From the NCBI RefSeq assembly GCF_014644415.1, contig NZ_BMKQ01000001.1:1726861-1790860 (forward strand): a stretch of DNA of 64,000 bases, written 5' to 3'. A program made the position numbers and the translations under genes. This document shows positions 26,368 to 28,706 of the stretch, in pieces (within the stretch, counting starts at the first letter, position 1; the number at the start of each line of letters is the position of its first letter). The notes under the pieces were generated by a model. The model was not told the DNA's origin. It searched no databases and was given only the letters and a program-made list of their open reading frames with translations. Origin of the DNA: Marmoricola endophyticus. Lineage in GTDB: Bacteria; Actinomycetota; Actinomycetes; Propionibacteriales; Nocardioidaceae.

Positions 26368-26841
26368 TCAGGCGGTGGCCCGACGCAGGAGCAGGTAGAC
26401 CTCGCAGCCCAGGCACAGGCCCGCGACGGCGTTCAGCAGGGCGGCCACGAGGGCGAGCCCGGTCGCGACGGCACCGATCGGCCCCAGCCCGGCCAGGTAG
26501 CCGACCAGGCCGACCCCGGCGAAGACCAGGCCCACGGCCTGGGCGAAGCGGAGCGGCTGCGGGTCCTCGAGCTCGGCCGGCGGTGCGAGCCGTGGCCGGA
26601 CCAGACGGCGGAACACGATCGCCCACGGGCCGTGCTGCACGCCCGCCGCGGCGCCGAGCGCGAAGAGCAGCACCTGCAGCGCGAGCAGCACGACGCCGAC
26701 GGGACCGGGCGCCGTCAGCAGGACCACGACGAGCACCACAGAGGTGAGCGCGGCAGCGAAGCGCGGACCGCGCGGGTCGACGGAGCTCGACGTACGAGTC
26801 GGGGCGTCGTCGAGCGCGGGTCCGAAGTACGGAGAGGTCAT
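26368..26841 (-). CDS. DUF4395 membrane protein
   Basis: A 157-residue protein with about four membrane helices ([72 protein letters not shown]). The DUF4395 hallmarks are [12 protein letters not shown], the [16 protein letters not shown] loop and the terminal CLGCE cysteine pair. The family accompanies thioredoxin and sulfurtransferase genes in actinobacteria. The CxxC in the last helix suggests a redox or sulfur-transfer role at the membrane; function unproven. The ATG at 26841 follows GAGGAA. First full-length gene of the operon after the leader peptide. Confidence 0.85.
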
Positions 26842-26883
26842 GACTGGTTCCTCGAGGATCGCCAAGGGCTGGACAGGGCTGAG

Positions 26884-26901
26884 GCCCGCCACGAGGCGGA
26901 C
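26884..26901 (-). promoter_or_regulatory. Hairpin between Cys leader peptide and DUF4395 gene
   Basis: On the minus strand GTCCGCC, a four-base loop TCGT, then GGCGGGC form a seven-pair stem (one G-U). It lies between the leader-peptide stop (26941) and the DUF4395 start (26841). No U-run follows, so an intrinsic terminator is not clear. It may be part of an attenuator responding to translation of the leader. Confidence 0.35.
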
Positions 26902-26940
26902 CGACCGTGCCGCGGCGTGCTCAGGCTCGACGGCGCACGG

Positions 26941-27015
26941 TCAGGCGCATCGACACAGCGACGAGCGCACCCGGCACTGGTCCACCACACGGCGGCGCGT
27001 CAGCAGGACAGTCAC
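26941..27015 (-). CDS. Cysteine-rich leader peptide (leaderless, 24 residues)
   Basis: A 24-codon frame read GTG ACT GTC CTG ... to TGA. Its peptide has the actinobacterial sulfur-gene leader pattern: LLTRRR, VDxCRVRSSL, then CRCA at the end, with three Cys, two of them as Cys-Arg-Cys just before the stop. No ribosome-binding site precedes it, but a TAGTTT -10 box ends seven bases before the GTG, the spacing expected for a leaderless transcript. Comparable Cys-rich leaderless peptides in mycobacteria attenuate sulfur genes according to cysteinyl-tRNA supply. Here it precedes DUF4395-sulfurtransferase-DUF1416, so cysteine-responsive control is the likely role. Confidence 0.72.
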   Translation of the reverse strand: MTVLLTRRRVVDQCRVRSSLCRCA

Positions 27016-27022
27016 GGTCGAG

Positions 27023-27028
27023 AAACTA
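27023..27028 (-). promoter_or_regulatory. -10 box (TAGTTT) of leaderless sulfur-operon transcript
   Basis: TAGTTT on the minus strand matches the actinobacterial TANNNT -10 element and leaves seven bases before the leader-peptide GTG, so transcription would begin at or next to the start codon. No good -35 is seen about 17 bases upstream, which is common for this promoter class. Confidence 0.5.
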
Positions 27029-27986: not shown

Positions 27987-28706
27987 GTGAGCACCGTTCT
28001 CCTCCTGACCACCTCCACCCAGCCGTCCGCAGACGTGCTGCCCTCGCTCGGCCTGCTGAACCACCAGGTCCGCGTGCTCCCCGCCGAGGGCGCGGCCCTG
28101 CTGGAGGCGCCGGACCACGACGTGGTCCTCGTCGACGGCCGCCGCGACCTGGCGCACGCCCGTGACCTGACCCGGCTGATCCGTACGACCGGCTCGGTGC
28201 AACCGGTGCTGCTCCTGGTGACCGAGGGCGGCCTGGCCGTCGTCGCCGCCGACTGGGGCATGGACGACGTGCTGCTCCCGACCGCGGGCCCGGCCGAGGT
28301 CGAGGCACGGATCCGGATGGCCACGGGCCGCCTGGCCGCGCAGGGCGAGGACGACCCCGAGGCACGGATCATCCGCTCCGGCGAGGTCGTCGTCGACGAG
28401 GCGACCTACACCGCGAAGCTGGGCAAGCGCACGCTCGACCTGACCTTCAAGGAGTTCGAGCTGCTGAAGTACCTCGCCCAGCACCCGGGCCGGGTCTTCA
28501 CCCGCGAGCAGCTGCTGCAGGAGGTGTGGGGCTACGACTACTTCGGCGGCACCCGCACCGTGGACGTCCACGTGCGCCGTCTGCGAGCGAAGCTCGGCAA
28601 CGACCACGAGACGCTGATCGGGACGGTGCGCAACGTCGGCTACCGCTTCGTGCTGCCTCCGAAGGACCAGAGCCGCGACACCACGCGCGACCCCGCGCGG
28701 ACCTGA
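27987..28706 (+). CDS. glnR: GlnR-type orphan OmpR-family regulator
   Basis: A 239-residue regulator with an N-terminal receiver-like domain and a C-terminal OmpR/PhoB winged helix (about 130-225: [28 protein letters not shown], then [14 protein letters not shown] and GYRF). The N-terminal half reads like actinobacterial Gln[38 protein letters not shown] and [11 protein letters not shown]. In GlnR this domain lacks a full phosphorylation pocket and acts as a constitutive dimer, controlling nitrogen assimilation genes. No histidine kinase gene is adjacent, consistent with an orphan. The GTG at 27987 is the family start. It is followed by mshD after 31 bases. Confidence 0.78.

Follow-up and report, generated by a model that had tools for sequence, protein, structure and literature searches.

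In mycobacteria, a short upstream ORF (uORF) with a C-terminal Cys cluster precedes cysA2 / Msmeg_5788, and 70S ribosomes were found on this uORF in M. smegmatis (Shell et al. 2015, PMC4633059). Cysteine-dependent attenuation by the mycobacterial leaders is credited to Canestrari et al. 2020 in PMC9031893 and PMC13236596. The window analyzed here, a 64,000-nucleotide stretch of the Marmoricola endophyticus genome, carries on its minus strand a short frame that is very probably orthologous to the Ms5788A leader of mycobacteria. In Nocardioidaceae, this leaderless uORF would tie expression of the DUF4395, rhodanese, and DUF1416 genes to Cys-tRNA. By analogy with the family, the operon would be controlled by the cysteine supply. 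This kind of leader is already known, and what our comparison appears to add is a rule for the use of UGU at one Cys codon.

The leader ORF runs from GTG at 27015 to TGA at 26941 (26941‒27015, minus strand), and its 24 codons translate to VTVLLTRRRVVDQCRVRSSLCRCA. On the same strand, a TAGTTT box at 27028‒27023 is followed by CTCGACC (7 nt) and then directly by the GTG, and no Shine-Dalgarno sequence precedes this GTG. The spacing is conserved among the relatives: of 96 orthologous leaders, 95 have a TANNNT box 6 or 7 nt upstream of their ATG or GTG start codon. The starts of these leaders were picked partly by this box, and the agreement in spacing is still far above what such a choice would give by chance. 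The arrangement is that of the leaderless NF042933 type, with the 5' end of the transcript predicted at the leader start, and the coordinates confirm an earlier reading of the DNA as a 24-residue leaderless frame seven bases past a -10 box and without a ribosome-binding site. In Streptomyces lividans, where leaderless transcripts make up 17%, the -10 motif was likewise mapped as TAnnnT (PMC8079986). No -35 element is recognizable in the window or conserved in the aligned relatives, and a search of the region for a sigma-70 consensus promoter gave none. The leader contains three Cys codons, Cys14 (TGC, 26974‒26976), Cys21 (TGT, 26953‒26955), and Cys23 (TGC, 26947‒26949). These codons are not adjacent to one another, and the absence of contiguous Cys codons places the leader outside the polycysteine sORFs as defined by Canestrari 2020.

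On the minus strand, the leader is followed by the DUF4395 gene (PF14340, 26368‒26841, ATG at 26841) with its Shine-Dalgarno sequence GAGGA at 26849‒26853, a CysA2-like sulfurtransferase with rhodanese domains (25466‒26314), and an SseC-like DUF1416 gene (25170‒25466). The leader promoter lies between the leader and a thioredoxin-like, ThiX-like gene on the same strand (27096‒27530), and a ThiS/MoaD-like gene of the same orientation is also located upstream. A position between a thioredoxin-like gene and a rhodanese/DUF1416 operon is typical of NF042933-type leaders. In Actinomycetes outside Nocardioidaceae, the same thioredoxin-like neighbor recurs and the genes are ordered thiX, leader, often DUF4395, rhodanese, and DUF1416, and this order is also found with leaders carrying a mycobacterial-type poly-Cys ending (VSARLEPMLTKRRAVDLCRVAGCCCCCCSC). 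The locus and the synteny in relatives thus bear out the first-pass annotation in placing a leader ahead of the DUF4395, sulfurtransferase, and DUF1416 genes. Beside the operon, a GlnR-type regulator and the mycothiol synthase MshD are encoded divergently at 27987‒29640, a neighborhood that we take to be that of Rv0814c-Rv0819 in M. tuberculosis.

In a profile search, the window leader matched NCBIfam NF042933, "Ms5788A family Cys-rich leader peptide", with an E-value of 1.5e-5 and 24.6 bits, below the curated cut-off of 45 bits. The cut-off likewise exceeds the scores of close relatives whose motif is intact, the best Nocardioidaceae matches listed reaching about 37 bits. The window leader is the sole NF042933 match in the 3.66-Mb genome, even at E<=10. 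Against the sister family NF042934 (cis_reg_atten), the peptide scores 14.9 bits (cut-off 27 bits), and a search with this profile revealed no further leaders in the same genome. We base the homology to the Ms5788A family on synteny and alignment, not on the curated cut-off. Of 150 Nocardioidaceae genomes, 122 yielded a DUF4395 gene, and the upstream DNA was read for 110 loci. A homologous leader is present in 103 of these 110 syntenic loci, 96 by a strict pattern and 7 more with LTRRLAVD, and across the class an NF042933 match at E 0.05 or better was obtained in 309 of 395 genomes. The window leader shares the core LT[KR]RRAVDxCR...C in the form LTRRRVVDQCRVRSSLC, departing from the family consensus by V for A within RRAVD and by Q after D. 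The mycobacterial precedent of attenuating leaderless Cys peptides, which had been invoked for this locus from the sequence alone, therefore holds as homology, with the same orthologous operon behind the leader (PMC4633059, profile match, and synteny).

Both in Nocardioidaceae and class-wide, the residues LT[K/R]RRAVD, R, and S of the core are fixed while their synonymous third bases vary. Since the amino acids are conserved with free third bases, the peptide itself is under selection, beyond its Cys codons. Conservation spans the whole LTxRRAVDxC motif, which is more than a simple cysteine-count attenuator would need. The leaders of relatives typically end in CRMS or similar and have Cys at just two places, core positions 9 and 16. 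The terminal Cys-Arg-Cys emphasized in the first-pass annotation is present in the window, but none of the other Nocardioidaceae leaders read has it; the invariant Cys is Cys21, the first of its two, and Cys23 is an extra Cys two residues further on. Two other Nocardioidaceae leaders (L090 and L110) have 4‒5 Cys codons (NCCMCSSLCR and NCCTCSALCC) and in this resemble the poly-Cys leaders of mycobacteria.

The two core Cys residues differ sharply in their codons. In 83 of 83 unique Nocardioidaceae cores, TGT encodes the Cys of core position 16 (Cys21 in the window), while that of core position 9 (Cys14) is TGC in 82 of 83. Outside Nocardioidaceae, the class contributed 84 unique cores; 82 of them have a Cys at position 16, encoded by TGT in every case, and TGC encodes Cys9 in 78 of 82. 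In the sister family NF042934 (R-x-H-V-D-L-x-R-x-x-S-x-x-C), whose members often occur in several copies per genome, the equivalent Cys is TGT in 44 of 44 correctly framed unique leaders (three misframed loci were left out), Cys9 is UGC in 13 of 13, and many leaders carry the UGU Cys alone; the leaders compared are related, and the UGU counts are not independent events. TGT accounts for just 6.4% (Nocardioidaceae) and 18.9% (class) of the Cys codons in neighboring genes, and other codons in the same frames are free at the third base, as for Arg at core position 3 (CGG 27, CGC 25, CGA 15, and CGT 12). The codon before the invariant TGT varies (CTC, CTG, TGC, TTG, or ATG), as does the codon after it (CGN, TGT, TGC, CCN, CAN, or CTN). 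Since the flanking codons vary, the constraint is on the TGT codon itself and not on a longer RNA motif. The identity of the UGU codon thus seems to be selected inside the conserved peptide motif, and the pattern points to one sensor codon, at 26955‒26953 in the window, and not to the terminal Cys-Arg-Cys as such. We found no description of this UGU rule in the literature searched, and priority is uncertain because Canestrari 2020 itself was outside that search.

Taken as an Ms5788A-type attenuator, the leader may work as follows. Transcription would start at or beside G27015, and 70S ribosomes would initiate on the terminal GUG. Under Cys-tRNA shortage, the ribosome would halt at the Cys codons, chiefly at the invariant UGU of Cys21, four codons before the stop, while holding the conserved RRxVDxCR chain in its tunnel. 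If the ribosome paused with UGU in its A site, the upper exit tunnel would hold the conserved residues, a placement like that in arrest peptides. The halted ribosome would raise operon expression, and with plentiful cysteine the ribosome would complete the leader and depart, so that expression falls. Several observations count against an attenuator ortholog: the bit scores under both NCBIfam cut-offs, the lack of consecutive Cys codons, the lack of a conserved fold or terminator, and the small effect of modeled leader masking on the downstream Shine-Dalgarno sequence.

A refinement of the attenuator reading, rather than a competitor to it, is that the leader is an arrest peptide with a sensor codon, in which the nascent R-R-[AH]-V-D-x-x-R-x-x-S primes the ribosome, a single UGU read by wobble is the sole true sensor, and the number of other Cys codons acts as a modifier. 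The fixed UGU in all three leader sets against an almost fixed UGC at Cys9, the rarity of UGU in the neighboring genes, the variable codons around it, the nearly invariant non-Cys residues, and the sister family, in which the only Cys is often this UGU, all favor such a sensor; however, one tRNA-Cys normally reads both codons, which leaves the choice of UGU unexplained, and the mycobacterial poly-Cys leaders suggest that the number of Cys codons also matters. We hold this reading tentatively, at somewhat less than an even chance, and give about the same weight to its extension, by which the NF042933 and NF042934 superfamily would consist of sensor-codon arrest peptides whose ribosome is hypersensitive at a single Cys codon, necessarily UGU. 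The conservation might instead reflect a constraint on the RNA or DNA, the coding RNA of the leader being a structured element and the peptide a by-product. Nocardioidaceae leader RNAs are indeed more stable than synonymous recodings (mean z -1.39), with a mean of -30.0 kcal/mol against -27.8 kcal/mol for column-permuted synonyms, and a near-palindrome, GCAGTGGACCACTGC, lies within Ala-Val-Asp-His-Cys, where Ala is mostly the rare GCA. However, at -7.6 kcal/mol the consensus fold is weak, the few pairs it contains hardly vary, and a single conserved RNA fold of the leader was rejected on this energy. The Arg, Val, Asp, and Ala codons are free to vary class-wide, the window copy has little excess stability (z -0.58), and the region has no Rfam match, which together make a structured RNA improbable. 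The palindrome itself, 15 bp long and completed by the rare GCA, recurs in Nocardioidaceae leader cores such as that of L023, with a degenerate counterpart at 26988‒26974 in the window. A chance or antisense frame without function would fit the scores under the curated cut-offs and the divergent window copy (RRVVDQC), but it is contradicted by the comparison, the peptide, the -10 spacing, and the synteny being conserved in 103 of 110 loci and class-wide, and we regard it as hardly credible.

How a stalled ribosome would be read out by the operon was considered for the spacer between the leader stop and DUF4395 (26842‒26940, minus strand). This spacer contains a GC-rich hairpin with an 8-bp stem at 26902‒26883, and the small hairpin noticed earlier before the DUF4395 gene is therefore present; it has no T-tract, and it is neither significant, since dinucleotide shuffles of the spacer fold just as well (z +0.33), nor conserved. 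For these two reasons we do not take it as evidence for a terminator. For the spacers of relatives, the mean z against dinucleotide shuffles is -0.80, a mild excess of structure, but a conserved spacer hairpin was rejected, as their lengths range from 38 to 187 nt with no common sequence or structure. No intrinsic terminator (GC hairpin with a U-tract) was found in the window spacer, and TTTT occurs in only 5% of the relatives' spacers. When ribosome masking of the leader was modeled, the unpaired probability of the downstream Shine-Dalgarno sequence rose from 0.30 to 0.36 on average (85 loci) and was unchanged in the window. Alternatively, a ribosome stalled near the leader stop might block Rho-dependent termination in the spacer. 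Such a readout agrees with the missing intrinsic terminator, with an excess of C over G in the spacers of 99% of loci (C/G 1.51), and with the position of Cys21 only four codons from the stop. On the other hand, this bias is not specific to the spacers, because the ratio is just as high (1.50) over the first 100 nt of the gene. In the window, the spacer has only a mild excess of C (0.40 to 0.33), and it is highly structured. We consider the Rho-dependent block rather unlikely, and Rho-dependent and translational readouts of the stall are both possible. In some relatives (L019, L023, L035, L037, L040, L044, L046, L050, and others), the spacer carries a second palindrome, of the type AAGTCNACT...AGTNGACT, after the leader stop and directly before a TANNNT-like box. 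There may thus be a second promoter under its own regulation in these relatives; this palindrome is absent from the window.

Upstream of the leader promoter, an operator-like element, GAGAC-N4-GTCCATCA-N3-GAGAC, occupies 27057‒27081 (minus strand), approximately -67 to -43 from the leader start. In the alignment of about 95 Nocardioidaceae loci, information peaks at the GGAC/GAGAC, GTCC, AT, and GAGAC half-sites, and the consensus array of the relatives is GNGAC-N4-GTCCNCAT-N3-GNGAC, built of GNGAC / GTCNC half-sites. Since this operator-like array is conserved and no -35 element is, the comparison suggests a putative activator site, and the operon is probably under dual control by a transcription factor and the leader. 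A regulon could not be derived from the element, as the degenerate pattern overmatched the genome, and the two good-looking matches precede methyltransferase-like and GAPDH-like genes (by-eye calls), not sulfur genes.

With the window leader, the cysteine-attenuation device known from mycobacteria would extend to Nocardioidaceae, where it precedes the same operon. Within the conserved peptide stands an absolutely conserved synonymous UGU, in high-GC genomes that otherwise avoid this codon. The UGU rule reduces the question of sensing to a one-base test and offers a simple annotation rule for such leaders. If the sensor-codon reading is true, a synonymous change of this UGU to UGC would leave a leader unable to sense, and the window leader would sense via Cys21, with Cys23 as an accessory.

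Among the described systems, the Ms5788A family (NF042933; Msmeg_5788 / cysA2 uORF) shares with the window leader a leaderless start, the LTxRRxVDxCR core, a Cys near the C terminus, and the same neighbor genes in the same order. The window leader differs in having no consecutive Cys run, in its lower score, in the Q at core position 8, where the class mostly has L or F, and in the change of A to V in RRAVD. The cis_reg_atten family (NF042934) has in common with it the R-x-x-V-D-x-x-R-x-x-S-x-x-C core and the invariant UGU, but usually contains HVDL instead of AVDx, is often multicopy, and is matched by the window peptide at 14.9 of the 27 bits set for it. The uORFC-8-2 motif upstream of cysS in Rhodobacterales is likewise a uORF with cysteine codons, for which attenuation by the Cys-tRNA supply has been predicted (PMC8632094). 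However, it has tandem Cys codons, mainly UGC, and a two-stem RNA with an intrinsic terminator, and it is unrelated in sequence and phylum (PMC8632094). The leuL, trpL, and ilvL leaders of Streptomyces lividans resemble the window leader as leaderless short ORFs that contain codons for the regulated amino acid and precede amino-acid genes, and some of them also have no typical terminator (PMC8079986). They serve other amino acids, however, and do not have a conserved peptide motif of the type found in the window leader (PMC8079986).
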